From the IMG/VR virus record IMGVR_UViG_3300033155_000819, positions 1-44,523 of that record: a DNA stretch of 44,523 nt. One strand, written 5' to 3'. Positions within the stretch are counted from its first letter, which is position 1; every line of letters begins with the position of its first letter. Shown one piece after another: positions 372-26,322 of this stretch. The position numbers and the translations under genes are program-made. The stretch comes from a virus. The notes beneath the pieces were generated by a model, which searched no databases, was not told the DNA's origin, and saw only the letters and a program-made list of their open reading frames with translations.

Positions 372-749
372 ATGCAGTTTGACAAACTAAACGATAATAA
401 TTTTTTGCTATTTGCGACCAAGTCATATGAGAATCCTCAATATGCTGGTGTCGACGAATTTAATGAAGATATCAAGATTCTGTCTTATATCAAAAGGATA
501 CTCAGGAAATACACAAAGCATCGTGAGATCAAGGAGCGCCTTTTATTAAACCATATTATAACATTATCCAATCTCTTTGGCAATACCTCAACAGCCAGAA
601 TGGTGTTTTATTATTGCGATGAAGTGAATTATCCGCAGATCAAAACTGTTTTAGAATATTTGAACATTTTACCTGACACCCTACTGGAAGTAGATTTAGA
701 TGAAATTGATTATGACCACAATATAATAGAGATCCTAAGGAGAATTTAG
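372..749 (+). CDS. Conserved T4-like phage hypothetical protein (DUF7207-like)
   Basis: A 125-residue soluble protein, starting MQFDKLNDNNFLLFATKSYE. The pattern of an N-terminal 'LLFATKSYENPQ' segment, then a basic helix and 'RLLLNHIITLSNLFG', resembles a small conserved family found in marine T4-like phages; I recall it as DUF7207 and cannot check this. Its function is not known. It is one of only two plus-strand genes here and is followed at 2 bp by the next one. An AGGA ribosome site lies 9 bases before the ATG. The family members I remember sit near structural genes, which suggests a late virion-related role. Confidence 0.6.
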   Translation: MQFDKLNDNNFLLFATKSYENPQYAGVDEFNEDIKILSYIKRILRKYTKHREIKERLLLNHIITLSNLFGNTSTARMVFYYCDEVNYPQIKTVLEYLNILPDTLLEVDLDEIDYDHNIIEILRRI

Positions 750-751
750 AG

Positions 752-1306
752 ATGGCCTCAGCAGTAGATTTATTCGTAGCCCTGAAATTTGTCAAGCTAT
801 TGACCACAGATTGGGAAAAGTGGCCTGCCTTCAAACTTGGCTTAATAGACGAGAAAGGCAAAAAGCTTAAGAAAGCAAAATCAGATGAAGAAAGAAAGGC
901 TATGGGTATATTCCAAGTCCTTACTAAAAACATAAAAATCTTATTGAATAAAATCCCCTTCGGTAAAACAAAACTTGCATCATACGCTACAGGTTTATTC
1001 TTAATCAGAGAGCATTTAGGTGACGAACAATATGAAGTTTTGGAAACTTCTTTTATATTCTTTATAGATGAGGAATATGGAATTGATATTGAATATTTAC
1101 GAGAAGCAACTAATGATGAAGTTGACATTTTATTACCTGGTAAATATGAAATAATTAACGAGGGAATTTTCAACGGTGGTGTATTTGTAATAGCAGACAC
1201 CCTAAACCCTATTGCTAATGTTATGAGTGTCGCTATATTTGAATCAGTAGATGCGGTGACTAAAGAACGTCTTGTGTTTACTAAAGATGATATTAAAAGC
1301 TTTTAA
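752..1306 (+). CDS. Conserved phage hypothetical protein, possibly virion-related
   Basis: A 184-residue protein with no signal peptide or clear motif. The N-terminal third is rich in helix-forming residues (ALKFVKLLTTDWEKWPAFKLG, then a lysine-rich turn) and the C-terminal third is beta-like and acidic. It forms a two-gene plus-strand unit with the gene before it and has a good AAGGAG site 9 bases before its ATG. Its stop codon overlaps that of the convergent minus-strand gene by 4 bp, so no terminator lies between the converging units. A similar protein type occurs in other marine T4-like phages, but I cannot assign a function. Confidence 0.6.
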   Translation: MASAVDLFVALKFVKLLTTDWEKWPAFKLGLIDEKGKKLKKAKSDEERKAMGIFQVLTKNIKILLNKIPFGKTKLASYATGLFLIREHLGDEQYEVLETSFIFFIDEEYGIDIEYLREATNDEVDILLPGKYEIINEGIFNGGVFVIADTLNPIANVMSVAIFESVDAVTKERLVFTKDDIKSF

Positions 1307-2184
1307 TAAAACTTCCTAGCAAAAATAAACGCTTTAGACTTTTCATCACGGAACAAGAATGTTTTCTTTGGGTTCTTCTTAATATAAGCTTTAATATTCT
1401 CTGAAAACTTATCATCACCCAACCATTTTTTCCAGTGTGATCCTTTCTTCTTACCTTTAAAACAATTATCAAATACACCTTGTGGGCAATCAAAATAAGG
1501 GTGGCTGCGAAATGTTCCAGATGGTTTAAATGGCTCTGCTGGTATGTTTGCAGTTGTAGTCACTTCCATTTTCATTTTAATTTTTCTAACTACAGCTTCC
1601 TTTATAAATGTTCTTCCTAATTTGCGTCCGCCTAATTCTCTTGGCTCTGTGAATTTACCCTTAACGCCAGCTTTCTTCATGGCAGATTTTACAACTTTCT
1701 CAATTGCATCACCACCATCTTTAAACAAACCGCCGAAGGACATTACAACTTTACCGCCCTTTTCCTTAAATCCGAATGATGTAGATTTTGGTAGCTTCTT
1801 AACTACAGCAGCAAGTGCCGTTAACATATCAAGAACCCTATCATCATCTTTTAAATCGCCTGAGGTTACAACCGCAGTTATACCTAGTGCCTTTTGTAAT
1901 ACTTTTCTTGGTTCATCAATTAATGACTCTGAAAGATTTGCTGGGTGGTGTTTCTTTTCATCACCCTTCTTAGCTGCCTTTAAGTCCTTCGGTGGCTTTG
2001 CTTCTTTAGCTGGTAGCACTTCGCCGCTATTCAAATCCATCCAGTGAAATTTAGCAGTGCCTTCGCCTTGAGCATTGTAAGCAAAGTGAACATTCTTTAC
2101 ACCATATGATTTTATAAAGTATTTCTCAGCTTCCGCTCTACTATATTTCTTTTCAGCTTCTTTAATCACTTTAATTTTCCTCAT
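1303..2184 (-). CDS. Probable packaged internal head protein, unknown activity
   Basis: A 293-residue very basic protein. It begins MRKIKVIKEAEKK, where I7-K8-E9|A10 fits the cleavage rule of the T4 gp21 prohead protease (I/L-x-E|A/G); this is a slightly shortened version of the N-terminal tag carried by the next genes upstream. Residues 15-60 (YSRAEAEKYFIKSYGV) resemble a small charged helical domain, and the C-terminal part has a cluster of aromatic and Cys residues (HPYFDCPQGVFDNCFKG). No enzyme family recognised. It is the last gene of the 7441-1303 operon and overlaps the 68-residue gene before it by one base. Packaging is inferred from the tag and operon. Confidence 0.55.
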   Translation of the reverse strand: MRKIKVIKEAEKKYSRAEAEKYFIKSYGVKNVHFAYNAQGEGTAKFHWMDLNSGEVLPAKEAKPPKDLKAAKKGDEKKHHPANLSESLIDEPRKVLQKALGITAVVTSGDLKDDDRVLDMLTALAAVVKKLPKSTSFGFKEKGGKVVMSFGGLFKDGGDAIEKVVKSAMKKAGVKGKFTEPRELGGRKLGRTFIKEAVVRKIKMKMEVTTTANIPAEPFKPSGTFRSHPYFDCPQGVFDNCFKGKKKGSHWKKWLGDDKFSENIKAYIKKNPKKTFLFRDEKSKAFIFARKFY

Positions 2185-2390
2185 TATTTCTTCTCCAATT
2201 CCTTTTTGAAAAGACTTTTTAATTTGCTATCCTGTGCGGCTGATACTTGTACAATATAAGCATTACCATCTTCACCGCGTAAGAGTGCCACCATACCGTT
2301 TGACGTTTGTTTAACTTGAACTCGCTTCTCAAAGAACGGGCCCTTTGTCATTGATAATACAGCGTTTGTTAAATTTGCTGACCTTGCCAT
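2184..2390 (-). CDS. Small basic hypothetical protein in the cargo operon
   Basis: A 68-residue basic protein (MARSANLTNAVLSMTKGPFF...) with no tag of the MKSF type, unlike most of its neighbours. It is tightly linked: one-base TAATG-like overlaps at both ends. The middle (VQVKQTSNGMVALLRGEDGN) looks like a short beta-rich segment and the C-terminus is a lysine-rich helix. It may be a partner or immunity-type companion of one of the flanking cargo proteins; this is only a guess from gene order. Confidence 0.55.
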   Translation of the reverse strand: MARSANLTNAVLSMTKGPFFEKRVQVKQTSNGMVALLRGEDGNAYIVQVSAAQDSKLKSLFKKELEKK

Positions 2391-2974
2391 TATACTGCAT
2401 CCTTTAATAAGTTACGCATGGTCTTCCATTCACCATGTAATTCTTTTGGCATTACTTTTCTAAATACTGGTAAGTCGCCATTTCTAATAGCGTCTCTAAC
2501 TTTAGTAGCAGAGGTAACGCGCTCTGCTTCTTTCATTTTAACTCTGAATTTCTTTTCTTCTGGCAGGCTTTTGTTTATTGAATCAACTTGGCCTTTGTAC
2601 TTACCAAATCTATCAGGTCCTGCGACGATTGTAACTGGCTCAAAACCAATCCCACGGATAGCTGAAAGTATTTCTGGTATGAATCCTGTTCTTGAAACAA
2701 TGATTCTAAGGTTAGCACCAAGGGCTTTCTTTAAAAGTCTTTGTTGATACTGAGCATCAAAAGGATTTTTCTTTTTATCCTTTGATGATTGCTCACCTTT
2801 CACAAGAACAATAACTGGGTTCTTCATTTTCTTAATTGCTTTAATATGTCCATTGTGTATAGGTTGCATCCTACCAAGGAACACTTCTACAGGGTTACCT
2901 TGCAATGCAGGAATACCTGCAATGATTTCTTTCATTGATTTTGCTTCGTTTAATACTTCAATAAAAGATTTCAT
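2390..2974 (-). CDS. Capsid-targeted NadM-like adenylyltransferase (cytidylyltransferase fold)
   Basis: A 194-residue protein with two parts. Residues 1-10 (MKSFIEVLNE|A) match the T4 capsid-targeting peptide, with L8-N9-E10|A11 as a gp21 cleavage site. Residues 29-190 form a nucleotidyltransferase of the HxGH superfamily: GRMQPIHNGH (34-43) is the ATP-binding motif and SATKVR (155-160) the second conserved motif of NMN/pantetheine-phosphate adenylyltransferases. The best-known relatives transfer AMP from ATP to NMN, FMN or pantetheine phosphate; which substrate is used here cannot be read from sequence. A second, non-tagged NadM is encoded at 15332-16372. I infer that this copy is packaged in the head and injected. 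Confidence 0.75.
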   Translation of the reverse strand: MKSFIEVLNEAKSMKEIIAGIPALQGNPVEVFLGRMQPIHNGHIKAIKKMKNPVIVLVKGEQSSKDKKKNPFDAQYQQRLLKKALGANLRIIVSRTGFIPEILSAIRGIGFEPVTIVAGPDRFGKYKGQVDSINKSLPEEKKFRVKMKEAERVTSATKVRDAIRNGDLPVFRKVMPKELHGEWKTMRNLLKDAV

Positions 2975-2975
2975 T

Positions 2976-3491
2976 TTACCAGTTCCCCACTCTTATTTCA
3001 TCTTCAAATTCTTTCACAAGTGACAAAGCAACACTCTTGACATCTGCTTTACTGAAGATTCGATCTTTTTCATCTTCTCTGGCAAACTCTCTAGCAAAAT
3101 GTTTTACACCAAATAACACAACCGCAGTCATTGCCTTCAATGCTTTCTTCTGATCATACTTCCCTGCTTTTGTATTTTTGGAGATTTGCTTAACAAGGGG
3201 AACTAGCTTCTTTGTATAAACCAATTCATTATTTTGAATGAATAATTCTAACTCTTGTATTTCAGAAGTACCTTCCATCAACTCTTCTGTAAAGTTTTCA
3301 CCAAACATAACCTTAACAGCAGCCGCGACGAGCTTCTTATCCTTTGAATACTTACTTAGGATTTTAGTCATTTTCTTTTTATCGCCGTCGTCAATAGCAA
3401 CAATTAATGGGCTTGTGCCTTCCTTGCTGTAAACACCTGATAAAAAGTCTTGAACTTTTTTATCTGATATAGCTTCCTTAAATGTTTTCAT
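2976..3491 (-). CDS. Probable packaged internal head protein, helical, unknown function
   Basis: A 171-residue lysine-rich, mainly helical protein. It begins MKTFKEAISD, close to the tag shared by this operon, but position 10 is Asp rather than Glu, so the cleavage site (I8-S9-D10) is non-canonical. The segment from about 20 to 70 (SPLIVAIDDGDKKKMTKIL) resembles a short helical repeat. An AAGGA site precedes the ATG. No known domain recognised. The neighbours on both sides carry canonical tags, which supports the same fate. Confidence 0.6.
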   Translation of the reverse strand: MKTFKEAISDKKVQDFLSGVYSKEGTSPLIVAIDDGDKKKMTKILSKYSKDKKLVAAAVKVMFGENFTEELMEGTSEIQELELFIQNNELVYTKKLVPLVKQISKNTKAGKYDQKKALKAMTAVVLFGVKHFAREFAREDEKDRIFSKADVKSVALSLVKEFEDEIRVGNW

Positions 3492-3500
3492 ATTATTTCC

Positions 3501-4637
3501 TTAATTGTTAGCAATCCCAATCTTCCTAAGATTGGCTATAACTGCATTTACCTTTTCTTTATTAACTTTCGTCAAACCTGTATTAGGATTTGCTCGCTTC
3601 TTATCAGCTTGAAACAAAAACAACAGGGCTCTGAATACATCTTCAGCCCACCAGTTCCTTTTAACTATAGCAGTAACCTGCTTAGGAAGCAAGGTAAAAC
3701 TTATCCTTGAAAAACGTGTTTTATCAATGGCATCTTTATCAAACTTCTTGAAGCTCTTACTTGATAGCTTAACATACTCTGCGGTCAATTTCACTATAAA
3801 ATCAACATAATTTTTAGGCTTTTTGGCTATGGCCTTCTTCACTGCCTTATCAAAGTATTTATGTATAGATTCATTTACAGTATTTTGGTAGGTATCTGTA
3901 GCCATTTTGGCCTGCTTATCTTTGATACCTTGAGTGAATCCTGGGTCAACCACTTTAGCCATGACTTGATCCTTACCACCGAAGAAGAACACAAGCCCCT
4001 CAAATTGATCAGTCTCTAGGTACTTCACCTCATCTGGTAGCACGAACATTGAAAGTATAAAGCTAACAAACTTTTCGTAGCCATACTTTTTAAGCCTCTG
4101 ATCTTCAGGAGTATCTGAAAATTCAATAAGCTTTTTCTGTTGCTTTGCTGATAGCTTACCATCAAACAATACTGGGGGTGGGCTGACCTTAAGTATATCG
4201 GCGACTTTTTTGTTTAGTGGGTCATTCGGTTTAACCGTCTTCCCAGCTTTTTTGATATACGAAATGATAAGATCATTTTTTGGATGTCTTTTATATTGAA
4301 TCAGTGTAGGAAACTTTGCATTGAAAAATTCCATGTACACTTCAATATTGTCTGGCAACTTTGTAAGTGCCTTGACGCCGAGCCCCTCAATGTGGCTGAT
4401 AGGCTTTTCAAAAACATCCATACCCAAACGCTTTATTAAATCAATCTTCTTACCGCCTTCACGGCCAAGGTAGGATATTTCACCACCCTGCTTACTCAAT
4501 ACGAATGCTGCCTGATCAATTTTCAAATTGACGACAACATTTTTATTTAGAACTTTATTTAAAAACTCATTACCTTTCTTATTTAAAAGGTCACTTACAT
4601 GAGCCAGTTCTGTAATGTACTGAATAAAACTTTTCAT
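3501..4637 (-). CDS. Capsid-targeted RNA/DNA ligase-like protein
   Basis: A 378-residue protein with a capsid-targeting N-terminus (MKSFIQYITE|L; I8-T9-E10 at the cleavage point). Downstream motifs fit the covalent nucleotidyltransferase (polynucleotide ligase) fold in the correct order: K39-I-D41 in place of K-x-D-G (motif I), GREGG near 58-62, YMEFF at 101-105 (motif III, E103), FEGLV at 212-216 (motif IV, E213) and AKVVDP from 227 (motif V, K228). The C-terminal 140 residues are helical. The family joins nucleic-acid ends via a lysyl-AMP intermediate. Motif I lacks the usual Gly and motif V lacks K-x-K, so activity is uncertain. The assignment rests on motif reading alone. Confidence 0.55.
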   Translation of the reverse strand: MKSFIQYITELAHVSDLLNKKGNEFLNKVLNKNVVVNLKIDQAAFVLSKQGGEISYLGREGGKKIDLIKRLGMDVFEKPISHIEGLGVKALTKLPDNIEVYMEFFNAKFPTLIQYKRHPKNDLIISYIKKAGKTVKPNDPLNKKVADILKVSPPPVLFDGKLSAKQQKKLIEFSDTPEDQRLKKYGYEKFVSFILSMFVLPDEVKYLETDQFEGLVFFFGGKDQVMAKVVDPGFTQGIKDKQAKMATDTYQNTVNESIHKYFDKAVKKAIAKKPKNYVDFIVKLTAEYVKLSSKSFKKFDKDAIDKTRFSRISFTLLPKQVTAIVKRNWWAEDVFRALLFLFQADKKRANPNTGLTKVNKEKVNAVIANLRKIGIANN

Positions 4638-4645
4638 CTGTTTTA

Positions 4646-5281
4646 TTAAGCCACTTTCGCATTCTTGTCAAGCCACTTTAAAATAACTTTAAAATCTTTA
4701 TGACCTGTAGACTGTCCTGCAAACTCAGCTTCTTTACCCACCTTAAGATCATTAACATTTTTAAATGCTGAATAATAAAATTTATTTGTGGCCGTTGGCT
4801 TGTACGCTGCGAGGAATACTTTACCTACCTTAAATACAGTTTGGGTGGCATAGGTTTGATCCATCATAACATCGCCTTGTGTGTTTTTACCTTTAGCTTT
4901 GCCAACCATTGAAACAGCTTTTCCGTATTTAGAAATAAGTTCTTGTTGAACCTCTCTAAGTTTGTTCATGTCTACAGCTTCTAATACAAACTCTTCATTA
5001 TAGGTTTGATCAAACATTCCTTTGAATTTATTATCAGCATCCCATAAAGTCTCCATTGCAATTTCTCTAGGAGTTGTATCCATTTTAGCAATGAATTTAG
5101 TAAGCTTGCTTTCATCACCTTTGTATAGTAAATCACGAAGCTCTGCGTATTGTGGTTCGTCAATTTTACCATAACCCATTTTCTTATTATCTTTAATAAG
5201 ATCATCAATGGCGCGGCCGCCTTTCTTCGCTAGTTTATTTGAGATCTTTGCCTCACCTATAAATTGTTTATATGATTTCAT
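4646..5281 (-). CDS. Capsid-targeted internal head protein, unknown activity
   Basis: A 211-residue protein beginning MKSYKQFIGE|A, close to the T4 internal-protein tag as I remember it (MKTYQEFI-x-E|A). Cleavage after E10 (I8-G9-E10) is expected. The mature part is basic at its start and its C-terminal half has a compact alpha/beta look (VFLAAYKPTATNKFYYSAF, then GHKDFKVILKWLDKN). No family recognised. Its ATG overlaps the previous gene's TGA by 4 bp. Confidence 0.65.
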   Translation of the reverse strand: MKSYKQFIGEAKISNKLAKKGGRAIDDLIKDNKKMGYGKIDEPQYAELRDLLYKGDESKLTKFIAKMDTTPREIAMETLWDADNKFKGMFDQTYNEEFVLEAVDMNKLREVQQELISKYGKAVSMVGKAKGKNTQGDVMMDQTYATQTVFKVGKVFLAAYKPTATNKFYYSAFKNVNDLKVGKEAEFAGQSTGHKDFKVILKWLDKNAKVA

Positions 5282-6555
5282 GATAGTAATTGAACTCCTA
5301 TTTTATCTTTCAAACGGGTCTTGCCGTTCTTTGTTCTTAGTATAGCGGATGGTTTCTTACCTTCATAAGTTTTGAATTGTGGTACACCATCGGCCATTTT
5401 TAATAAGTTAATATAATAAACATTTCCGCCTGTTGCATCTATGAACAAGTCAGAGTAATCTAATTTTGGCTTTTTACCTTTTGAAAGACCAGTTAATAAT
5501 ACTTCCAATGCATATGCAACTTCGCCCCACTTAGGATTCTTTTTACCCTTCTTAAGTTTGTTGTCGTCAGCAAACCTATCGTAAATATCTTTGTCATACT
5601 TCCAAGACTTTTCATTGTTAGCAAGCCAATGATCTACCATCTTTTTGCTTACGCCTTTTATTCTCATATAGTTTGCAGCTATAACAGGACCCTTCACAAT
5701 ACTATTATCATTGAGGATCTTCATAACTTCAAACTCAGGTTCACCATTCCATTTCTTTTTAAGCCTTGGGTTTTCATTAATCAAACGAACAATGTCAACA
5801 GGCTTAACTGTATTTGTAGTTGATTTACCTGACTTAGCAGAGAAAGTGTATTCCTTCTTCTTGTTACGCATTGCAAAGTCCATCAATGGCTCATTGCCTC
5901 GTAGCGGGAAAAAGATCTCTGAGTTGTTACTTAATTTTAATTTTGAAAACAGTCCAAGTCCTGTGATAGCTAATGGGCCTATCAGTTCACCAAAGTTTTT
6001 CTTAATTTCATTCATTGGGAAGTTATCATAGTTGAACTCTTTGAACATATCCTTCAACTTTTTAGGGGCGCCTTTTGCATGATATTCAACAAGCAATAAC
6101 AAATATTCTTTTAATGATTCTGTAAGATCAGTTCTAGCATTAATACCAGAGTTAATGGCCTTAACGTATTCAGCTTTTTTGTACCATGTTTCTTTAATTC
6201 CTAAAGTTTGTGGTTTTAATTCAAACTTCTCAGATGAGTTTGCATATTGTAAACCTACTGAAGATGGCATGATGCCTTTTACTTTACTTCCATAACGAAT
6301 TAAGAAAACGTTTTGTTTCTTACCTTTCAATTCAAGGACAGTACCACTCTTACCAGGCTTACCAACTTCCTCAATACCATAACCCAAGTCAGTAAATTTA
6401 TCTATTGCAACTTGAATGTCTTGATAAAAGTCAGTAGACGCAAGTGTAAATACTTCATCTTTGGCGTCTTTGAAAACCACACCATCGCCAAGATGCTTTG
6501 CAGCCATTAAGCCTTCAGAGTTAGCTTCCTTCAAATAGTTTGTGAAGTTATGCAT
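5278..6555 (-). CDS. Capsid-targeted protein, possible nuclease
   Basis: A 425-residue protein. The chosen start, ATG at 6555, gives MHNFTNYLKE|A, a good packaging tag with L8-K9-E10 at the cleavage site, and overlaps the upstream stop by 8 bp; a longer in-frame start 33 bases upstream would bury the tag. The central region (FFPLRGNEPLMDFAMRN, then KKEYTFSAKSGKSTTNTVKP) has the D...x-S-x-K arrangement seen in some PD-(D/E)xK-type nucleases. This nuclease reading is an inference from a short pattern and could be wrong. The rest is alpha/beta with no recognised domain. Confidence 0.6.
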   Translation of the reverse strand: MHNFTNYLKEANSEGLMAAKHLGDGVVFKDAKDEVFTLASTDFYQDIQVAIDKFTDLGYGIEEVGKPGKSGTVLELKGKKQNVFLIRYGSKVKGIMPSSVGLQYANSSEKFELKPQTLGIKETWYKKAEYVKAINSGINARTDLTESLKEYLLLLVEYHAKGAPKKLKDMFKEFNYDNFPMNEIKKNFGELIGPLAITGLGLFSKLKLSNNSEIFFPLRGNEPLMDFAMRNKKKEYTFSAKSGKSTTNTVKPVDIVRLINENPRLKKKWNGEPEFEVMKILNDNSIVKGPVIAANYMRIKGVSKKMVDHWLANNEKSWKYDKDIYDRFADDNKLKKGKKNPKWGEVAYALEVLLTGLSKGKKPKLDYSDLFIDATGGNVYYINLLKMADGVPQFKTYEGKKPSAILRTKNGKTRLKDKIGVQLLS

Positions 6556-7441
6556 ACTTCTGAATTTCCTTTGGTGGGATAAAGCCAACGTTAATTAAAT
6601 CCTTAGCCGCCTTAGTTAATATCTTCTTCCTGGATTTCTTGTGTAGGAACTTGCCACTCATTACGGCGCTGTAAACAGTTTCAAACGACATGGCCGAGCT
6701 CTTGTCAAAGTCTTTGCCAAGTAAAGTCTTTGCAATAAAGTCTGGGTCTTTACCCTTTGCCATTAATTCAACATCAATGGTCTTGGAGTTCTTCAATATT
6801 CCTTTCTTACCAATTCGTGATTTGATGATTTTCTTGAATCCTGTGCGGATATCAAATACATATTTTGACCACTTGACAGGAACATCTTCACCTTCAAAGT
6901 CTCCACGCTCAAGGACTTTCTCGTCTACAAATGCTGCGATAGCGTTCATAAGAATATTTCTATATGCGCTTTTATATTTTGATTCGTAATGTAGTGGAGA
7001 CCAATATGCAAACTTAGCAAAATCCATGTCTTCAACAAACATTAAATCTAGCTGTACATTCTCTCCCTTCTGCTTGCCGTCAACATTAGCAATAGGAAAG
7101 GCCACCGCCATAACAGCGAGGCCTTTATTAATATGCACCTCAGGGAATAGAGGTGATAAAATTTTATTCATTGTGGCATAGATATCATCTATTGATTTCA
7201 ATTTATGCTTCTTGACAAGGACATTCAAATCCAAGGCGATGTCTATATCACCTGACGACTCTCCTGGAGCTTTTTTGCCAGTGCTTCCAATTGGCATCAT
7301 TGATTCCTTACCTAGCTTTAATTTCTTGGCAAGAACCTTATCTATATCTTTTAGGGTTTGGGCTACATTCTCTTGGTTAATTCTAGTCACATTCTTGACT
7401 GAATTACCCCCTTCCTTGAGGAACATTTTAAAACTTTTCAT
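6548..7441 (-). CDS. Capsid-targeted polymerase-beta-type nucleotidyltransferase
   Basis: A 297-residue protein. The start is the ATG at 7441, preceded by AAGGAT at 8 bases, giving MKSFKMFLKE|G (L8-K9-E10 cleavage site); an upstream in-frame start lacks the tag. Residues 51-70 hold the nucleotidyltransferase signature: G52-S53 followed by GDIDIAL with D65 and D67, and a third Asp at D132 (LDLMF) on the next strand. This pattern is that of minimal NTases and tRNA- or nucleotide-modifying enzymes. Substrate unknown. It is the first gene of the cargo operon, directly behind a late promoter. Confidence 0.8.
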   Translation of the reverse strand: MKSFKMFLKEGGNSVKNVTRINQENVAQTLKDIDKVLAKKLKLGKESMMPIGSTGKKAPGESSGDIDIALDLNVLVKKHKLKSIDDIYATMNKILSPLFPEVHINKGLAVMAVAFPIANVDGKQKGENVQLDLMFVEDMDFAKFAYWSPLHYESKYKSAYRNILMNAIAAFVDEKVLERGDFEGEDVPVKWSKYVFDIRTGFKKIIKSRIGKKGILKNSKTIDVELMAKGKDPDFIAKTLLGKDFDKSSAMSFETVYSAVMSGKFLHKKSRKKILTKAAKDLINVGFIPPKEIQKYA

Positions 7442-7475: not shown

Positions 7476-7483
7476 TATTTATA
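7476..7483 (-). promoter_or_regulatory. T4-type late promoter (TATAAATA) for the cargo operon
   Basis: An exact TATAAATA on the minus strand, overlapping the last codons of gene 41. The expected start of transcription is about 6 bases downstream, leaving a leader of about 30 bases before the ATG at 7441. This is the sequence recognised by gp55-type late sigma factor with the sliding clamp, and both proteins are encoded in this window. Confidence 0.75.
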
Positions 7484-8858
7484 TTTTGAGAGTGGCAAAC
7501 CCTTTACTCTTTTCAGGTTCGTTAGGGCCTTTATTGCCACTTCCCACTAATCCATCTTGAGCAGAGTCCTCTAAATCATACAACCTCATCTTCGATTTGT
7601 CACAACCAACAATAAACTTCTTATAATAGTTCACATCGTTGTATCTATTCTTGAGTTGCTTGAACATAAGCTGGTTCATCTCAGCCATTTCGTCAGTCTG
7701 GATAATGGCTAGGAATAAATCAGCCGTTGCAGGTAGACCAAATGATTCTGCCACATTACCCAAATCTACATCGGTTGAGCCATAACCTTCTCTGTTGATC
7801 TGAGTAGCAGACCAAATTGGCACATTATATTCCTGCGCCAAGCCACGAACTTCTTCAGCTATTGACTTGACTAGGGTGTAACTATTTGTTGCCCCACCAG
7901 CTTTGACCCTTGACGATGCACAAATATTAAGGTAGTCCACCATGATTACATCTGGTGAGAACCTCTTCTTCATTTTCAATTCTTTCAGCAAATACCTAAA
8001 GTGTCCAACATGTGCAGATGACGTTGGGTATTCCTTTATGATCAATTTACCTGTTGTGGTATTTCTGATTGCTTCCACGCGCTTTTCGTATTGTGGTTTA
8101 GGTAAATCCTCTAACACGTTAAGACTAACATCAAGTAGGTTAGCATCAATACGTTCTGCTATTCTCTCTTCGGCCATTTCTAATGTAATGTATAAAACGT
8201 TTTTACCTTGCATCATATGATGGGCTGAGAAATGACACAATGCGCCAGACTTAAATGTACCTGGGCCACCCATTAAAATATTTAATGTTTTATTAGGCAC
8301 ACCACCTTTTGTGATCTTGTTCATGTACTCAAGATCAAATGGGATCCTATTTTCTTTCTTATTATAAAAATCCCAACGCTCACCTACGTCTTCAATATAA
8401 TCATGTCCAATGTGAGTGTCGAAGGATATAGATAATGCATCAGATAACAAGTCAGGAATTGCTCCCTCATCCTTATCAGACTCACCACCCATTATTGTAA
8501 TTGTTTCTGCAACTGCTAGATGAAGCGAACGCTTCTTGCAGAACTCTTCAGTATTATCAACCAACCATTCACGATCAACCTTCTCTTGGCTGTCTTGGTG
8601 GTAATCGTTTAATAATATGATGATACGATCTAACACATCCTGACTAACTTGAGTATCATGTTCTATCTCAATGATCAAAGCTTCTTTTGTTGGTCTGGTG
8701 TTATACTTATCTAAATACTTTACAATTGATTCGTAGATCACTCTACGGCCAGCGTCTTCAAAGTATTCACTCTTCAAAAAAGGTATAACGTGTCTTATAT
8801 AACCTTCATCATATATTAAATTTCTTAATATAATATCTACAATATCAGCTTGAATCAT
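7479..8858 (-). CDS. 41: Replicative DNA helicase gp41 (DnaB-like)
   Basis: A 459-residue hexameric 5'-3' helicase that moves on the lagging strand and works with primase gp61 (T4 gp41 is 475 residues). The helical N-terminal domain covers roughly residues 1-150. The RecA-fold motor follows, with Walker A GGPGTFKSG near residue 199, a Walker B strand VIMVDYLNI, and the ATQINREG arginine-region loop typical of DnaB-type helicases. Its start overlaps the end of the gp40-like gene by 14 bp, preserving the uvsX-40-41 order of T4. Confidence 0.95.
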   Translation of the reverse strand: MIQADIVDIILRNLIYDEGYIRHVIPFLKSEYFEDAGRRVIYESIVKYLDKYNTRPTKEALIIEIEHDTQVSQDVLDRIIILLNDYHQDSQEKVDREWLVDNTEEFCKKRSLHLAVAETITIMGGESDKDEGAIPDLLSDALSISFDTHIGHDYIEDVGERWDFYNKKENRIPFDLEYMNKITKGGVPNKTLNILMGGPGTFKSGALCHFSAHHMMQGKNVLYITLEMAEERIAERIDANLLDVSLNVLEDLPKPQYEKRVEAIRNTTTGKLIIKEYPTSSAHVGHFRYLLKELKMKKRFSPDVIMVDYLNICASSRVKAGGATNSYTLVKSIAEEVRGLAQEYNVPIWSATQINREGYGSTDVDLGNVAESFGLPATADLFLAIIQTDEMAEMNQLMFKQLKNRYNDVNYYKKFIVGCDKSKMRLYDLEDSAQDGLVGSGNKGPNEPEKSKGFATLKI

Positions 8859-12311: not shown

Positions 12312-12663
12312 TGGTGGAGCTGGCGGGAATCGAACCCGCGTCCTAAGTCTTTCCAACAAATGCTTCTACACGCTTTTTCATTTTTAAATTTCGGCAGTGG
12401 TATGTCTAAATGAACAAACCCATAACTCCCTACACCCTAAATAAAAGTATACCTCGGGTATGTATACAGTTTTGCCTAATTTAAGTGACTCCCCATTGTG
12501 ACAACCATTAAGGCATCATTGTCACGGGAAGGATCAAGCTGCTATAGCTTGTTCGTAGTTGCTATCGTTTGCAATTAACGTTTTTGATTCTATTTTACGA
12601 GGTGTATCATCCTCGGCGTGCTACATTTATCGTCTACCACTCAGTCGAAACCAGGGCAGCCCC
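12312..12663 (-). ncRNA. ssrA: Transfer-messenger RNA (tmRNA, one-piece)
   Basis: A 352-nt tmRNA for rescue of stalled ribosomes. The 5' end GGGGCUG pairs with CAGCUCC near the 3' end to form the tRNA-like acceptor stem (one G-U pair), the conserved GGUUUCGAC follows the 5' stem, the T-arm is GCGGG-UUCGAUU-CCCGC, and CCA is encoded. The tag reading frame lies at 12572-12534 and reads ANDSNYEQAIAA followed by UGA, with GCA as resume codon. The ANDxNY start resembles gamma-proteobacterial tags, while the AIAA end differs from the common ALAA. It is not permuted into two pieces as in alpha-proteobacteria. Preceded by a late promoter. Confidence 0.95.
12534..12572 (-). other. tmRNA tag peptide reading frame
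   Basis: Thirteen codons from GCA to TGA inside the tmRNA, giving the degradation tag ANDSNYEQAIAA. The hydrophobic-alanine end is what ClpXP-type proteases recognise in known tags; the last four residues AIAA are a variant of the usual end. Confidence 0.9.
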
Positions 12664-12677: not shown

Positions 12678-13037
12678 CTATTTATAAACTCCCATTATAG
12701 CTTTGCTCATAATGATAAGAGCTTTTTTACCTTGAATATTGATCTCTTCACAGGCGTGGCGATAAAACAAAATTTCATCTCCAACTTCAAGTCCATTAGT
12801 ATCGCTTGCATTTAAAGCGAGAACTCTGCTTGTGATTGGCATATTCAAATCCTTACCGCTTTTATTCTGATCAATAACAATGTTACCAATCTTAACCTCA
12901 CGGTCAACATATTCAATTAGGACAAAGTCATTTACTGTATGAAGTGTTTTACCTACTGGCTTATCTTCAACAGAATCTGTACCTGCTTGAGTTACATCTA
13001 GAACTTCTTTCTTTGGTTTATTTTCTACTTCGGCCAT
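12678..13037 (-). CDS. GroES-like co-chaperonin (functional analogue of T4 gp31)
   Basis: A 119-residue protein with a 30-residue charged N-terminal extension, then a Cpn10-like domain: VNDFVLIEYV, a flexible segment around NIVIDQNKSGKDLN in the place of the GroES mobile loop, VLALNASD, VGDEILFYR and ALIIMSKAIMGV at the end. It would cap host GroEL to fold the major capsid protein, as gp31 does in T4. The extension is unusual. Co-chaperonin identity rests on the order of these segments, since such phage proteins diverge strongly. Confidence 0.75.
   Translation of the reverse strand: MAEVENKPKKEVLDVTQAGTDSVEDKPVGKTLHTVNDFVLIEYVDREVKIGNIVIDQNKSGKDLNMPITSRVLALNASDTNGLEVGDEILFYRHACEEINIQGKKALIIMSKAIMGVYK
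12679..12686 (-). promoter_or_regulatory. T4-type late promoter (TATAAATA) for the tmRNA
   Basis: An exact TATAAATA overlapping the last codons of the GroES-like gene. Transcription would begin near 12673, about 10 bases before the mature tmRNA 5' end at 12663. Its placement directly ahead of a non-coding gene supports late expression of the tmRNA. Confidence 0.7.
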
Positions 13038-13438: not shown

Positions 13439-14896
13439 TTATTTTGAGATATTTTCTCTTACCTCAGCAAGTGTGGTTTCGTTGTATAAATCACCCTTAT
13501 AGTAGACCAACTTCATAACATCTTCAGTTTGATCGCTAAGTGGTGAAAGATCTAGTCTGGCTGTAAACATGCCTCCTGTCGCCATATCTCTAGCAAGTGT
13601 TAATACACCTTCTTTAGATTTCTTTCCGTGGTCAGTTACTGGGTCCTTTGCAATCCCAACCCAACCATCGTCTGTTAAAATTGCACATGCCTTTTGTGCA
13701 AACTTCAATGTGTCTCGATCAAGCTTTTGCAGTAGCGCACCACCTGAACCGAATATTACAGTGTCTGCAGCATAGCCCAATTTAGTAACAAGACTCAAAA
13801 GCTCTACAATTGTATTGTGGCATACTCCATCACCCTGTATCACACCTACTGTATTGATCTGCTTATAACCTTCTTCAGTTTCAGTAGTGCCAAACGCTTC
13901 TGCTTGCATCTCAAGTAGACGTGGTACAACTTCCATCATATCACCACTGTCTGGTCTGAATACAACCTTTGCTTTTGTATCAAGTATCTCTTGTTTCAAT
14001 ACAGTACAAAGCAACTTCGCCTCTCGGTAAACGTCGTAGCCGTCAATTACAATACTGATAATGGAACCTTCCACAGCGTTACTCAATTGCTTGCGGAGAT
14101 ATCTCACCGCATCATCTGAGCCACCACCAAACGAACATTGAATACTATGCTCTGTTGCGTAAACACTAAAGCCTGCCATTACTTCTTTATAGTAAAAGTT
14201 TGCCGCAAGTATTCCTTCAACTGTATCCGATCCCATGAAGTTTACAAGGTGAGCAGAGCCACCTATTTCAGCAGTCTCTCCGCTTGTTACACCACGGCCG
14301 CCGAAGTCATGTAACGCAAAAGGCAACAAGCCTTTATCCGCGCCAGTGAGATCATAAAACTTTTCAATCTCACCTTTGATACTGTAGTCCATTGTTGCAA
14401 TTGTTGTAGGATACCAAACTGCTCGCTGTATCATTGTTTCAAAGCCTGCGCTCATCCAATACAAATCTTTATCAAGTACAGTAACGGAATAAATTGGTTG
14501 TCTACCTTTCATAACTGTACCTTCTGGCACAGAGCGTATGATCAGTGGAAGCTTTCCGTCATAAACATTTACAACTTTCTCCCACGCTTTACGGGCAAAC
14601 AACTTGCGTCCAAAGTGGGCTTCACTAAATGCCTCTGCGGCATCTACATCTGCCATTGTGATTGTTTGTGTAAGGTATCTCTTTGTCAGCATCTGCATAC
14701 CAAACGGCACAATAGTTTCTGTTATATCTACCCTGGCTTCGCCGTATGAAGTCATACCTTTAATCCCATCAGGATATGCAAAAGGGTGACTAAATTTATA
14801 ACTGTCCATTCTACAAATCAAACTAATTCGTAGTTGGTCTTCTTGTGTGTATTGTATATCTTTTGAGTTTGGTTTAAATATTTCTTGTATGTTCAT
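13439..14896 (-). CDS. nadV: Nicotinamide phosphoribosyltransferase
   Basis: A 485-residue NAMPT/NadV enzyme that joins nicotinamide and PRPP to give NMN, the first step of NAD salvage. Recognisable blocks are MDSYKFSHPFAYPDG near the start (substrate region), LLPFALHDFGGRGV (~180), STEHSIQ-type ATEHSIQCSFGGG (~250), VFRPDSGDMMEVV and GVIQGDGV in the C-terminal barrel, all in NAMPT order and at normal length. With NadM at 15332-16372 it completes a two-step nicotinamide-to-NAD pathway, as known in some vibriophages and recently described as a counter to NAD-depleting host defence. An AGGGGATTCC leader and an AUAGA-loop hairpin precede the ATG. Confidence 0.93.
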   Translation of the reverse strand: MNIQEIFKPNSKDIQYTQEDQLRISLICRMDSYKFSHPFAYPDGIKGMTSYGEARVDITETIVPFGMQMLTKRYLTQTITMADVDAAEAFSEAHFGRKLFARKAWEKVVNVYDGKLPLIIRSVPEGTVMKGRQPIYSVTVLDKDLYWMSAGFETMIQRAVWYPTTIATMDYSIKGEIEKFYDLTGADKGLLPFALHDFGGRGVTSGETAEIGGSAHLVNFMGSDTVEGILAANFYYKEVMAGFSVYATEHSIQCSFGGGSDDAVRYLRKQLSNAVEGSIISIVIDGYDVYREAKLLCTVLKQEILDTKAKVVFRPDSGDMMEVVPRLLEMQAEAFGTTETEEGYKQINTVGVIQGDGVCHNTIVELLSLVTKLGYAADTVIFGSGGALLQKLDRDTLKFAQKACAILTDDGWVGIAKDPVTDHGKKSKEGVLTLARDMATGGMFTARLDLSPLSDQTEDVMKLVYYKGDLYNETTLAEVRENISK

Positions 14897-14925
14897 AATA
14901 GGAATCCCCTATAGTAGTTTATATT

Positions 14926-14946
14926 GAAGCGTGTCTATCACACTTC
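14926..14946 (-). promoter_or_regulatory. AUAGA-loop hairpin upstream of nadV
   Basis: An 8-bp stem (GAAGUGUG / CACGCUUC, one U-G pair) closed by the loop AUAGA. It spans the stop codon of the upstream gene and ends 30 bases before the nadV ATG, followed by AGGGGATTCC as ribosome site. A hairpin with the same loop but a different stem precedes nadM. Confidence 0.6.
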
Positions 14947-15321
14947 TTCTCGTTTGTCCACAAGTCCCTTGGCGGCAATTTCAACTAATGCGGCCAATGA
15001 TCCATGCGGGTTGTAAATTCTTAATCCTTGGTAAAGGAAAAACTCTCTTGTTTCATGTATCACTGCTCTTTCAATTGCAGCATATACCGTCGACACAACT
15101 TCACCGTCGACCATGTGGTAACTCAGCATCCATTTCCTACAACGCTGTTCTTCCATTTCACCTGTTACAGCATCTATACCTTGAAAAATGATTTGAATAT
15201 AAGGCCGATCTTCATCACCGTCCTCACCTAAAGCTAAACGGGTGTCATAACGTAATTGGATATCCCAATCTAAATATGAACAATCGTCTACCAGTTTTTG
15301 AAGTGTTTCTTTAGTTTGCAT
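14938..15321 (-). CDS. Hypothetical protein between the two NAD genes
   Basis: A 127-residue acidic protein with an AGGAGGTG ribosome site 4-5 bases before its ATG, which is an unusually strong site for this window. It looks alpha/beta (LDWDIQLRYDTRLALG, IQIIFQGID, then helices around TREFFLYQGLRI). No family recognised. Its location between nadM and nadV suggests co-expression with NAD salvage; its stop codon lies within the nadV leader hairpin. Confidence 0.6.
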   Translation of the reverse strand: MQTKETLQKLVDDCSYLDWDIQLRYDTRLALGEDGDEDRPYIQIIFQGIDAVTGEMEEQRCRKWMLSYHMVDGEVVSTVYAAIERAVIHETREFFLYQGLRIYNPHGSLAALVEIAAKGLVDKREEV

Positions 15322-15331
15322 ATCACACCTC

Positions 15332-16372
15332 CTACATCATTGATTTAATAATGTCATGGTGATCTTCAAAGAACCTGTGCTTTGACTTCAATACTTCTTG
15401 CAACGGAACCCACATTGCTTTCACTGCGTCGTCTCCGCCTTTCACCTTCGGTAATTCACCAGTTCCTAAATCAATTTTATATACATGAGTAATTGTTCTT
15501 CCGCGTAATGAACGGTCTGGTTTATCAAACACTCTTGTATCTACAATATTACCTCGAAGCACTGGCGCAGGAACTTTAAGTTTTGTTTCCTCTTTAAGTT
15601 CACGCAACATAGCAACCTCAATATATTCTTTAGGATTTACAAACCCACCAGGCATTGCCCACAATCCTTTTCCAGGTGATGCTCTACGTGTAACCAATAA
15701 CACATGTCCACTCTGTATCACAAGAGCATCTGCTGTAACGAACGTAGGTGTATATGGTGCTGTCTCCCAGCCCATTTTATATTCACGAATAAACCTATAT
15801 TCATCTACAAGAATATCAAACGCTGGTGTCTTGATAAACAAACCAAGGAATTCTTTAACAGCACCTGGAACGTTGTGTGATTGAAAAACTCTATCACAAA
15901 ACTTATTGAATAGGAAATCTCTTATTGAAGTAGAGTGCAGCCCGTCAATATTTCCCACTTCTTCAAAGTTCCATTTAGGAAACATGTCTAAGTAAAATGA
16001 CGATGCGTCTTTCATGTGGCCGAACAAACCAATACGGGCATCTTTTTTACCAGCAAAATTATCTACAATGTCATGAACGTTGGATGCCCACTCTTGGTTA
16101 TTGTATGCGGAATTTTCAATAGGAACAATTGAAACTCTATTAGCAACATCATCCACACCTGCATCATATAAAGAATACATGATCATCTCTGCACGTTCTT
16201 TAAACGTGAATGGGTTTTTAATTGTTCTTGGTTCATTTGCAGAACCAATTATGATTTTTAGTTTGTGGCTTTGTTCTAAAGCCATTAAGAATATTTTAAT
16301 GTGAGAATTATGAACAGGCTGAAACCTGCCTATAACAACTCCAATATCGTAGATTTTATCTTTATGTGTCAT
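15332..16372 (-). CDS. nadM: Bifunctional NMN adenylyltransferase / Nudix hydrolase
   Basis: A 346-residue two-domain enzyme. Residues 8-170 are the adenylyltransferase: GRFQPVHNSH (15-24) is the ATP motif and HSTSIRDFL (146-154) the second motif; it would convert NMN and ATP to NAD. Residues 210-346 are a Nudix domain with the box from G243 to L265 (E249, R257-E258, E261-E262), which in relatives hydrolyses ADP-ribose-like compounds. It pairs with NadV downstream. A late promoter (16425-16432) and an AUAGA-loop hairpin lie directly before it, and AAGGGGATTCC is the ribosome site. Confidence 0.92.
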   Translation of the reverse strand: MTHKDKIYDIGVVIGRFQPVHNSHIKIFLMALEQSHKLKIIIGSANEPRTIKNPFTFKERAEMIMYSLYDAGVDDVANRVSIVPIENSAYNNQEWASNVHDIVDNFAGKKDARIGLFGHMKDASSFYLDMFPKWNFEEVGNIDGLHSTSIRDFLFNKFCDRVFQSHNVPGAVKEFLGLFIKTPAFDILVDEYRFIREYKMGWETAPYTPTFVTADALVIQSGHVLLVTRRASPGKGLWAMPGGFVNPKEYIEVAMLRELKEETKLKVPAPVLRGNIVDTRVFDKPDRSLRGRTITHVYKIDLGTGELPKVKGGDDAVKAMWVPLQEVLKSKHRFFEDHHDIIKSMM

Positions 16373-16424: not shown

Positions 16425-16432
16425 TATTTATA
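16425..16432 (-). promoter_or_regulatory. T4-type late promoter (TATAAATA) for nadM
   Basis: An exact TATAAATA on the minus strand overlapping the end of the HAD gene, with the nadM hairpin about 7 bases downstream. It would place nadM, the 14938-15321 gene and perhaps nadV under late control. Confidence 0.65.
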
Positions 16433-22080: not shown

Positions 22081-22751
22081 GCCGCCTCTAACCCACAGTT
22101 ATGTTCTAAAAGTTCAATGATTTCTTTATACGCATTTGTTCTTGTTACTGAAGATTTAAAACATTCAGTATAACCGCCAAACTTTCTATTAGGTATATAC
22201 TTACTACTTTTTAAATCTCTTAAACATTCTGTCTCCATCAACCAACATTCGTATAATGGCATTTCTACACTTGCTATTATATCATAATTATAATAATTAC
22301 TCAATGAGGAAAATCTCTTTTTGATAGTTCCTTGAGTTATTCCAACTTTGACAAAAATTTCTCTTCCTGCTTTACTTGTAAACCTAATAATATAAAATAT
22401 TGCAGGAACATCCATCATATGTGGATGTTGTTCAAAATATTTTTTGTCATATAAACCACCTTGGCCTTGGCATATGGTACATCCTATAGGCATCTCTACA
22501 TGATGATCTAATCTTTGCTTCACTGTACCATGAATACTACATCCATATTCTAAATAAACTCTACGCTTCCCATCTTGAGTTTGATCTTTTTCTTTATACA
22601 TATTTGTGTATTCTAGGTTAGGGCATATGTATGGTAGTGCAAATTGATACGCCCAGCCTATAGTATATTTACTAGGCAATCGAATACCTTTATTTAATAA
22701 AGTTTCTTCATGCTGAAAAATCCAAGGTGGGGTTCCTGATTTTAATCTCAT
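22077..22751 (-). CDS. GIY-YIG-like nuclease domain protein
   Basis: A 224-residue protein. The N-terminal half has Cys/His clusters (CPNLEY, CSIHG, CTIC) that may bind zinc. From about residue 120, FYIIRFTSKAG, then VKVGITQGTIKKRFSS, METECL and GGYTECF follow the order of GIY-YIG core motifs in divergent phage members (GIY-like strand, YIG-like strand with Arg, Glu, final TEcF). It may be a homing-type or DNA-binding nuclease. It overlaps gene 43 by 4 bp (ATGA), so it is translationally coupled to the polymerase. Confidence 0.5.
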   Translation of the reverse strand: MRLKSGTPPWIFQHEETLLNKGIRLPSKYTIGWAYQFALPYICPNLEYTNMYKEKDQTQDGKRRVYLEYGCSIHGTVKQRLDHHVEMPIGCTICQGQGGLYDKKYFEQHPHMMDVPAIFYIIRFTSKAGREIFVKVGITQGTIKKRFSSLSNYYNYDIIASVEMPLYECWLMETECLRDLKSSKYIPNRKFGGYTECFKSSVTRTNAYKEIIELLEHNCGLEAA

Positions 22752-23023
22752 AACAATGCTCTTACAAGTCCCAACGTGTTAATGGAAGCGAACGTACAAT
22801 TTAAAATCACCAGCCAAACAGCATTCCTAAGGAAGCCACTATAGGCCATCATAATTGCGGAGATCAAAAAACAAATATACGCAAACACGAAATTCGCAGT
22901 TTGCGTATCCCAGGCAATCTCTAGTGCTGCCATTATACTTAATGGCACGGCAAACGATTCAATAACAAAAGGAACCCTTGAAAAGGCTAACTCATTTGTA
23001 ATATAATTTTTAACTCTTTGCAT
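22748..23023 (-). CDS. Membrane protein, about three transmembrane segments
   Basis: A 91-residue hydrophobic protein with likely spans near 24-40 (FAVPLSIMAALEIAW), 43-62 (ANFVFAYICFLISAIMMAYS) and 67-85 (AVWLVILNCTFASINTLGL). Overlaps both neighbours by 1-4 bases. Unknown function. Confidence 0.55.
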   Translation of the reverse strand: MQRVKNYITNELAFSRVPFVIESFAVPLSIMAALEIAWDTQTANFVFAYICFLISAIMMAYSGFLRNAVWLVILNCTFASINTLGLVRALL

Positions 23024-25488: not shown

Positions 25489-26322
25489 TTAACTCCCACT
25501 GTCGATTATTAAATTATCATAGGCTTTAAATATTCCTTCAAAGCCTGCTCTCTTTAAAGCATTATGAGTTTCGATCAATCTTTTATATGAATAACGAGGT
25601 TCTTCAATTCCTGCGTTTGCTACACGTCTCATATCCATACACACCCATTGGGCGTATTCATTATCTCTATATGGGTGTGTGACATAATCTTCTTCGTCAA
25701 TTCCATTGTTAGTCATTGCAATCCAACGTTTGAAACATGTAGAACATTGCCCGCAATTGTGGTGTTCTTCATGGTAACAAGTAGAGGTAGACACCAACTC
25801 TTGCACTGTGATACCTAAATCATTCAATGCAATACGAACAATATCCGATTTAGTAAAGTCCTTGAATGGTGTTTCCACAACAGTTTCAAAACGCTTGCTC
25901 TTAAATATATACGAGAATATTGAAGAACACATATGCATAAACTCTGGGTGTTTATCTCTAACTGCCGTTGGGTTCATTTCAGTTTCTAAGCTTGCCAGCC
26001 AAATAACATCACCCACAACTCCACCATAAAATAACATTAACAAGTTCCTACCATAAATCTCTTGTTGTTCTAATGTTGGTACATTATCAAGATCTTCTGT
26101 GGCAAGGTCAGCATTAATGATTTTTAAATTTTTAATATTACCGAACAGCTTATCAATAGCAGCATCTTCTTTGTCTTGATAAGGGCTACCATATCGAACA
26201 TATACAGGAATAACTTCTGTATATTCTTCATCGGCAAAAGCAGTTAAAGCATATTCATATGCAATGAAACTATCTAAGCCACCTGAAACCATTACAGCAA
26301 CTTTCTTTCTTTTAGGTATCAC
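25489..26322 (-). CDS. queC: 7-cyano-7-deazaguanine (preQ0) synthase
   Basis: A 277-residue QueC: converts 7-carboxy-7-deazaguanine to preQ0 using ATP and ammonia. The ATP pyrophosphatase loop SGGLDS is at residues 13-18; TSTCYHEEHHNCGQCSTC near 180-197 holds the zinc-binding Cys set of QueC. It is longer than the typical bacterial enzyme (about 230). The start is taken as GTG at 26322, which overlaps the upstream TGA (GTGA) with AGGAG 7 bases before; ATG at 26328 lies only one base from that site. Last step of the preQ0 pathway encoded here. Confidence 0.9.
   Translation of the reverse strand: MIPKRKKVAVMVSGGLDSFIAYEYALTAFADEEYTEVIPVYVRYGSPYQDKEDAAIDKLFGNIKNLKIINADLATEDLDNVPTLEQQEIYGRNLLMLFYGGVVGDVIWLASLETEMNPTAVRDKHPEFMHMCSSIFSYIFKSKRFETVVETPFKDFTKSDIVRIALNDLGITVQELVSTSTCYHEEHHNCGQCSTCFKRWIAMTNNGIDEEDYVTHPYRDNEYAQWVCMDMRRVANAGIEEPRYSYKRLIETHNALKRAGFEGIFKAYDNLIIDSGS

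Follow-up and report, generated by a model that had tools for sequence, protein, structure and literature searches.

Six adjacent genes in a viral DNA fragment of 44,523 nucleotides (IMG/VR record IMGVR_UViG_3300033155_000819, positions 1 to 44,523; hereafter the window) encode proteins that begin with ten residues of one type and continue into unrelated sequences. Does this shared N-terminus direct the proteins into the phage head, and what would they carry there? In T4, the internal proteins IPI, IPII and IPIII bear gp21-processed capsid-targeting sequences, and all three (Ip1–3) inhibit type IV restriction enzymes after being injected into the host cell, where they are active (PMC12373910). 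Here, we report a computational analysis of the six genes, which we name G2–G7, together with their relatives in other phages.

Six tagged N-termini downstream of gene 41

Each of G2–G7 (2390–7441, minus strand; Table 1) opens with a ten-residue tag of the pattern M..[FY]...[IL].[ED]. All six tags have F or Y at position 4 and one of Y, F, V and A at position 7; five of the six end in [IL]-x-E at residue 10, G3 having D10. Of the 54 open reading frames (ORFs) in the window, 6 start with the pattern, all contiguous, against a background of 7/5205 internal Met sites in other loci (0.13%). We also scored the N-termini with a tag profile trained solely on tags of DUF6267 proteins from other phages, a family of which we found no member in the window. 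The empirical p values were 1e-4 to 2e-4 for G2, G4, G5, G6 and G7 and 3e-4 for G3; one further window ORF exceeded the threshold (22748–23023, MQRVKNYITN), without an aromatic residue at position 4. Behind the tags the mature parts are mutually unrelated: all-against-all blastp gave no significant match, and the best cross-match between tagged proteins (E 0.01) was an alignment that includes the tag. The tagged proteins are rich in Lys (15.2% versus 7.7% elsewhere, p = 6e-8), and their mature forms are basic (pI 9.2–10.3). Both the tags and this composition are directly observed. An annotation error was considered for the MHNF-type tag of G6 and ruled out; the first nucleotides of the gene coincide with the last ones of G7, and only one tag has a higher score.

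The sequence-only reading of the window had described these N-termini, their unrelated remainders and five tags finishing exactly in I/L-x-E at position 10, all of which held for G2–G7. Its count of about seven tagged proteins failed: there are six, because the profile does not separate G1 (MRKIKVIKE) from background (p = 0.63), which rules it out as a seventh, and because an untagged 68-aa ORF separates G2 from G1. G1 is very basic (pI 9.85, Lys 18%), and owing to this composition we retain it as a possible, doubtful operon neighbour.

Table 1. Features of the tagged locus in the window.
Feature	Position	Strand	Description	Basis or remark
gp41-type gene	7479..8858	-	DNA primase-helicase	directly upstream of tagged genes
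Late promoter box	7476..7483	-	T4-type, TATAAATA	perfect match, 42 nt before G7 start codon
G7 tag	7412..7441	-	MKSFKMFLKE	pattern + profile score
G7	6551..7441	-	297 aa, very likely Pol-beta-type nucleotidyltransferase (GSTGKK...SGDIDI...VQLDLMF)	
G6 tag	6526..6555	-	MHNFTNYLKE	pattern + profile score
G6	5281..6555	-	425 aa, possible PD-(D/E)XK-like protein	motif level only
G5 tag	5252..5281	-	MKSYKQFIGE	pattern + profile score
G5	4646..5281	-	211 aa, orphan, pI 9.3	
G4 tag	4608..4637	-	MKSFIQYITE	pattern + profile score
G4	3501..4637	-	378 aa, likely RNA-ligase-2-like (K39-I-D-Q, EGLVF, AKVVDP)	
G3 tag	3462..3491	-	MKTFKEAISD	pattern + profile score
G3	2976..3491	-	171 aa, orphan, Lys-rich (16%)	
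G2 tag	2945..2974	-	MKSFIEVLNE	pattern + profile score
G2	2390..2974	-	194 aa, very likely HxGH (HNGH) nucleotidylyltransferase, PF01467	
68-aa ORF	2184..2390	-	basic, untagged	same operon, between G2 and G1, doubtful member
G1	1303..2184	-	293 aa, N-terminus MRKIKVIKE	without recognisable tag

Through its gp41-type neighbour, the locus can be matched to the corresponding site in T4-like cyanophages. The window holds no excess of the late promoter box TATAAATA (3 copies versus 5.6 expected), so that its placement, not its abundance, counts as evidence. Among relatives it precedes 21/119 tagged genes compared with 87/1771 other genes (p = 1.4e-6), and the antisense control gave 2/119 tagged genes; the alternative late motif [CT]TAAATA was not enriched before tagged genes in the relatives. 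The earlier proposal of a late operon is supported by the box 42 nt before G7, which is observed, and by this enrichment; transcription itself is inferred. The genes for gp21, gp22 and gp23 are absent from the 44.5-kb fragment, the head protease gene falling outside it; of 14 long contigs with relatives, 7 encode the gp21 protease (PF03420). As a side observation, the window also encodes QueC, QueD, QueE, FolE and a TGT-like protein, a set compatible with 7-deazaguanine DNA, as well as a NAMPT-type enzyme and NadM.

The tag as a probable capsid signal

The DUF6267-trained profile, when applied to 57 kb of T4 (87 ORFs), recovered exactly IPI, IPII and IPIII. Their tag (MKTYQEFIAE followed by A; MKSYKQFIGE of G5 is the closest to it in the window) has the length and pattern of those of G2–G7, with [IL]-x-E at positions 8–10, and the T4 proteins resemble G2–G7 further in being late gene products with unrelated basic mature parts, diverse behind a constant tag. 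There are distinguishable differences. The T4 proteins are small (8–20 kDa), non-enzymatic restriction inhibitors encoded at two loci, whereas the window holds six genes in one operon next to gp41, with products of up to about 48 kDa that include RNA-ligase-like, Pol-beta nucleotidyltransferase and HxGH proteins. T4 Alt and other ADP-ribosyltransferases are head-carried enzymes that are clipped by gp21 and injected; Alt belongs to another enzyme class than the window cargo, and its N-terminus (MELITELFDE) is not of the tag type and was not recovered by the profile.

In 124 kb of cyanophage S-SM1, the same profile recovered one gene, SSM1_190 (T4-GC190), which encodes a cytidylyltransferase related to G2 and carrying the tag MKKFSAFLNE (followed by A). 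It shares with G2 the HxGH motif and the place downstream of gp41; it is longer than G2, and it is the sole tagged gene recognised in the stretch scanned. T4-GC190 was detected by mass spectrometry in purified S-SM1 virions, but its processed N-terminus was not reported, and the text of that study never ties its packaging to a tag (PMC3037559). Its presence in the virion is no proof of injection, and contamination or external association, which that text does not exclude, remains possible.

A processing site can be seen among the relatives of G7. At 30/30 distinct sites P1 is E and P3 is L, I, V or M, and the P3–P1 site directly precedes a conserved mature start, [GS]GxA[IV]; three untagged relatives begin with M followed by this same motif. 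DUF6267 (PF19782) is tagged in environmental T4-likes and untagged, beginning at the domain, in cyanophages; it is the commonest tagged family among the relatives (45/103 with the strict pattern). In the sampled relatives, the tag stands on at least 20 unrelated families, mostly hypothetical. Some matches to the strict pattern (MPAYKLGIID, MSIFDLGIKD and MVVFKKLLKD) resemble the chance matches expected (about 9).

The earlier identification of the tag as capsid-targeting is supported by the T4 and S-SM1 scans, the G7 processing site and the tagged virion relative. We consider head targeting of G2–G7 very likely and strongly supported, while there are no virion data for this phage. The further claim of co-packaging and injection with the DNA rests, as does cleavage in this phage, on inference only. 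For G3, T4 IPIII mutants offer an analogy: D10 permits targeting and blocks cleavage (PMC9026906), and G3 is thus likely to be targeted yet unclipped. In the literature searched (mostly open-access, without bioRxiv), we found no report of a comparable tag in marine T4-like phages and no published description of DUF6267.

Predicted enzymes among the tagged proteins

The AlphaFold2 model of G7 (pLDDT 93.5) has a single disordered segment (pLDDT < 50), residues 1–10; a Foldseek search with it returned DNA polymerase beta (E 3.7e-5). Residues G52, S53, D65, D67 and D132 are invariant in the alignment of relatives, and GS...(D/E)xD plus the third Asp are present. No Pfam match was obtained among 35 members, with the RlaP model in that library unconfirmed, and a PDB sequence search gave nothing significant; fold comparison alone succeeded. 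From motifs and predicted fold, G7 is very likely a Pol-beta-fold nucleotidyltransferase, its activity being inferred. Similarly, residues 1–11 are the sole segment of the G4 model (AlphaFold2) with pLDDT < 50. Its top Foldseek matches are T4 RNA ligase 2 (E 9.9e-7) and other RNA ligases, at low TM-scores (0.3–0.4), and 21 of 31 relatives in its alignment match PF09414. G4 keeps the ligase residues K39, D41, E213 and K228. An Rnl2-like fold is likely as a model-based prediction; ligase activity is uncertain because Q stands for G in the motif KxDG. G2 matches PF01467 at 31.5 bits (cut-off 21) with HNGH present, so that an HxGH nucleotidylyltransferase is very likely, neither activity nor substrate being established. 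The proposal that some of the cargo consists of enzymes with nucleotides or nucleic acids as substrates is supported for these three proteins.

For G6, the conserved motif PLxDF...SxK makes a PD-(D/E)XK protein possible on motif grounds only, with no family match. Relatives of G6 occur in cyanophages S-WAM1 and S-SZBM1 and in marine virus AG-345-F15. Single-sequence scans of viral contigs with G4, G6 and G7 gave no matches; alignments were needed.

Relatives of G7, G4 and G2 occur together in 60 large-phage loci, where G4–G2 fusions are also observed. In large phages with the fusion, the fusion is untagged although G7 is tagged; the module is therefore not always fully tagged. The DUF6267 gene is adjacent in relatives and has ligase-like motifs (KWDGAPA ... 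EGF ... K), from which alone a ligase fold is inferred as possible; in the window, the Rnl2-like G4 takes its place in the module. Membership of G4 itself in DUF6267 was ruled out (hhalign probability 0.2%), the two being separate, and PDB sequence searches with G4 and DUF6267 gave nothing significant. Jumbo-phage RNA repair systems share the pairing of a ligase (ATP-grasp RNA ligase) with a Pol-beta nucleotidyltransferase (RlaP), but the relevant sections of PMC7824862 say nothing of a capsid tag, of packaging into the head or of an HxGH partner, and G7 matches no Pfam family. The folds, as predictions, and the module are observed. T4 capsid-targeting sequences were already known; what appears new is that the cargo includes enzymes, how widely it is spread, and that three of the enzymes form a module.

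Proposed explanation and its rivals

The likely explanation is that G2–G7 are late-made, tag-recruited head cargo of a T4-like phage that includes enzymes of nucleic-acid (probably RNA) repair, with packaging, cleavage, injection and repair all inferred. The genes would be transcribed late from the TATAAATA promoter located within the very end of gene 41, and the prohead core would recruit each protein through its tag (with an aromatic residue at 4 and a hydrophobic one at 7 or 8). A gp21-type prohead protease would then clip five of the six tags after [IL]-x-E, probably leaving G3 (D10) unclipped. The basic mature proteins would remain associated with the DNA inside the head and most likely accompany it into the next host, where G4, G7 and G2 may act as a pre-loaded repair kit; the ligase-like, Pol-beta and HxGH set is found as a recurring module in other phages. 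Injection is inferred from T4, and RNA repair is likewise an inference. A bolder reading, which we hold to be less likely than not, is that a capsid-export code is common to T4-like phages and to much larger ones, in which a tag ending in [LIVM]-x-E and cleaved after E stands before a complete enzyme and delivers an RNA repair kit (ligase, Pol-beta nucleotidyltransferase and HxGH nucleotidylyltransferase) into the host with the genome.

The strongest rival, which we consider somewhat improbable, holds that the injected cargo serves a counter-defence other than RNA repair, such as NAD+ or nucleotide metabolism, removal of nucleotide signals or type IV inhibition. G2 could be an NMN adenylyltransferase, and the window encodes NadM as well as a NAMPT-type enzyme. 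In T4, each of the three internal proteins blocks type IV restriction, and such a target is plausible here because the QueC, QueD, QueE, FolE and TGT-like genes fit 7-deazaguanine DNA. However, a conserved ligase, Pol-beta nucleotidyltransferase and HxGH protein resemble published RNA repair systems (PMC7824862) more than an inhibitor, and the window already has NadM at another position. It remains possible that G3 and G5 are inhibitors.

The second rival, which we find unlikely, is that the cargo is clipped in the core and acts only in head assembly or packaging, for example as scaffold filler or DNA-condensing basic protein, and is not delivered as active enzymes. The Lys-rich mature proteins, the head-assembly defects of T4 IPIII mutants (PMC9026906) and the altered ligase motif I of G4 speak for it. 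Nevertheless, mere filler would need no conserved active sites, and the nucleotidyltransferase signature of G7 varies little or not at all, G4 retains K39 and D41 together with its EG and AK motifs, and G2 keeps HNGH; in addition, T4 internal proteins are injected and act inside the cell (PMC12373910). That the shared N-terminus is some other sorting or interaction motif, e.g. for replisome or membrane binding, as its position after gp41 and the adjoining replication genes in relatives might suggest, is very unlikely given a motif identical in type to the experimentally mapped T4 tag, a profile that finds only internal proteins in the scanned T4 stretches and a virion protein in S-SM1, a conserved protease-like P3–P1 site and late boxes before tagged genes.

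With tag-recruited head cargo as the preferred reading, the T4 capsid-targeting sequence becomes a predictive rule, by which about ten residues indicate probable head-loaded proteins, and such tags could act as packaging signals in phages besides T4. With this rule, what phage heads contain and which proteins are delivered at infection can be tested across metagenomes. A ligase and nucleotidyltransferases among the cargo suggest that repair of host-inflicted damage starts with injected enzymes; if the bolder reading were true, defences that cleave tRNA or mRNA would be countered before any phage gene is expressed.

Tag recognition and predicted processing

The window, a 44.5-kb virus record, has a T4-like gene content, with nearly all genes on the minus strand; it includes the gp41 helicase, and further replication genes were recognised among the ORF translations. 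Downstream of gp41 the order is G7, G6, G5, G4, G3, G2, a 68-aa ORF and G1. The tag pattern M..[FY]...[IL].[ED] opens six of the 54 window ORFs, all six adjacent. Elsewhere, of 5205 Met sites internal to ORFs in other loci, 7 fit it. A position-specific tag profile was trained on 40 tags of a single family, DUF6267 (PF19782), from phages other than that of the window, where DUF6267 was not found. Among window N-termini it placed those of G4, G6, G7, G5 and G2 highest; an unrelated ORF (MQRVKNYITN) and G3 also cleared its threshold. Among the 87 ORFs in 57 kb of T4, the profile picked out only ipII, ipIII and ipI; in 124 kb of cyanophage S-SM1 it returned a single gene, SSM1_190. The sequence-only reading had proposed a set of about seven co-packaged proteins: its start codons and N-termini held on re-check, and its seventh member, G1, failed, the G1 N-terminus not passing the profile.

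SSM1_190, located downstream of gp41, encodes a cytidylyltransferase related to G2 and begins with MKKFSAFLNE followed by AERS. Its record labels it T4-GC190, a protein that Sullivan et al. (2010; PMC3037559) report from purified virions of S-SM1. This is independent evidence for a protein with this tag in a virion.

In G7 relatives from further loci, the mature part opens with a conserved motif, [GS]GxA[IV]. Where an N-terminal extension is present, Glu immediately precedes this start (34/34 distinct cases), and three relatives without the extension begin with Met plus the motif. Over 30 distinct sites, counting back from the predicted cleavage site, P1 is E in all 30, P3 is L/I/V/M in all 30 and P6 is F/Y in 22; given the relatedness of the sequences, these do not count as 30 independent events. 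In the window, the G7 tag MKSFKMFLKE stops exactly at GGNSVKN. Only residues 1–10 of the AlphaFold2 model of G7 (mean pLDDT 93.5) and residues 1–11 of that of G4 (80.3) fall below pLDDT 50. In T4 IPIII, targeting depends on residues 4 and 7 and processing on residues 8 and 10, and an Asp at position 10 prevents processing yet leaves targeting intact (PMC9026906); G3 carries the same Asp. We consider it very likely that all six proteins are targeted to the head, and likely that five of them are cleaved.

Spread of the tag and its probable cargo

In the fetched loci the tag is carried by at least 20 unrelated families. Outside DUF6267 the profile gave 113 matches in 43 families, compared with about 5 expected by chance at the same threshold, and on some contigs (e.g. 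L006, L145) most genes of a stretch are tagged. DUF6267 proteins of environmental T4-like phages mostly have the tag first and then the domain (MKTFKKYISE, then AKLTHLEHLED); the relative in cyanophage S-WAM1 starts M-SKNTHLEHLED, with no tag ahead. DUF6267 (L006, L052–L131), of unknown function, is the commonest tagged protein, with more than 590 relatives in IMG/VR; by its KWDGAPA, EGF and K motifs it resembles an ATP-dependent ligase family. On contig L166, eight ORFs within 12.8 kb open with near-identical tags (type MIKLNTYIIE/MKSIIEYIYE), a variant without the aromatic residue at position 4. By sequence likeness, tagged proteins of three further loci (see table) read as more enzyme cargo, namely an ADP-ribosyltransferase (LYHQTSDKNLTNIRKQGI) and HAD phosphatases (LDMDETIVDWM).

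Within the window, G2 is an HxGH nucleotidylyltransferase (PF01467), and G7 has the signature and fold of a Pol-beta nucleotidyltransferase. G4 has an RNA-ligase fold, nearest to T4 RNA ligase 2; TM-scores are low (0.3–0.4), so this call rests on the E-value and a uniform hit list. G4 retains the catalytic Lys and Asp as well as the EG and K motifs, with KIDQ in place of KxDG, and 21 of the 31 members of its family match the Pfam RNA ligase family. G6 shows a PD-(D/E)XK-like motif, at motif level only, and the remaining two, G3 and G5, are orphans. The trio of G7, G4 and G2 co-occurs in 60 loci, G4–G2 fusions are frequent, and contig L147 carries a tagged G7, a tagged HxGH protein and a third tagged protein whose KIDG motif is ligase-like. 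The fusion was first seen in LR756500 (L046), where motif I Lys of the ligase domain is Asn; directly upstream lies a second ligase with canonical KLDG and the tag MKFLKSYEEFLNE before N. In huge phages the tag is longer but similar in style.

The tag mechanism is already known from T4. In the literature searched, we found no description of enzymatic, module-like cargo behind the tag, nor any account of how it has spread among marine T4-like phages and larger ones.

Expression, composition and genomic setting

The T4 late promoter box TATAAATA has three copies in the window, one 42 nt ahead of the G7 start codon. Counting the window among the fetched loci, 21/119 tagged genes have the box within 100 nt, versus 87/1771 others (Fisher p 1.4e-6); the opposite-strand control near tagged genes gave 2/119. 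In their predicted mature form, all six tagged proteins are basic (pI 9.2–10.3), and Lys makes up 15.2% of their residues, compared with 7.7% for the remaining proteins of the window (p 6e-8), a composition expected for T4-type internal proteins.

Coordinates of the features discussed
Record	Positions	Strand	Feature
Window	372-1306	+	DUF7207 gene and neighbour, convergent with the tagged operon; in cyanophages too, DUF7207-like genes are downstream of the cassette (SSM1_196)
Window	1303-2184	-	G1
Window	2390-7441	-	G2-G7
Window	12312-12663	-	Complete tmRNA gene (Rfam 179 bits; tag peptide ANDSNYEQAIAA)
Window	12679-12686		TATAAATA, tmRNA gene's own late box
Window	13439-16372	-	NAD+ salvage pair: NAMPT-type phosphoribosyltransferase, bifunctional NMN adenylyltransferase/Nudix enzyme
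Window	16425-16432		TATAAATA, second gene of the pair
Window	22748-23023		Unrelated ORF passing the profile
Window	25489-31928	-	Genes like QueC, TGT, QueE, QueD, plus FolE
Window	29799-30497	-	Clp-protease-like gene (PF00574, E 7e-19) amid nucleotide-modification genes
L046	14992-16953		Fusion of G4-like ligase and G2-like HxGH domains
L091	9224-9736		Tagged protein
L056	7552-8139		Tagged protein
L058	9054-9632		Tagged protein

By analogy with T4, the tagged proteins are likely to be injected into the host. Jumbo phages are known to have RNA ligases together with Pol-beta nucleotidyltransferases, a pairing interpreted as RNA repair (PMC7824862); repair of RNA at infection by the tagged cargo is plausible, though less likely than not. 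The QueC/TGT/FolE/QueE/QueD set probably reflects 7-deazaguanine DNA modification, as inferred from gene content, and with such DNA, if present, the injection of anti-restriction proteins could be of use, as it is in T4.
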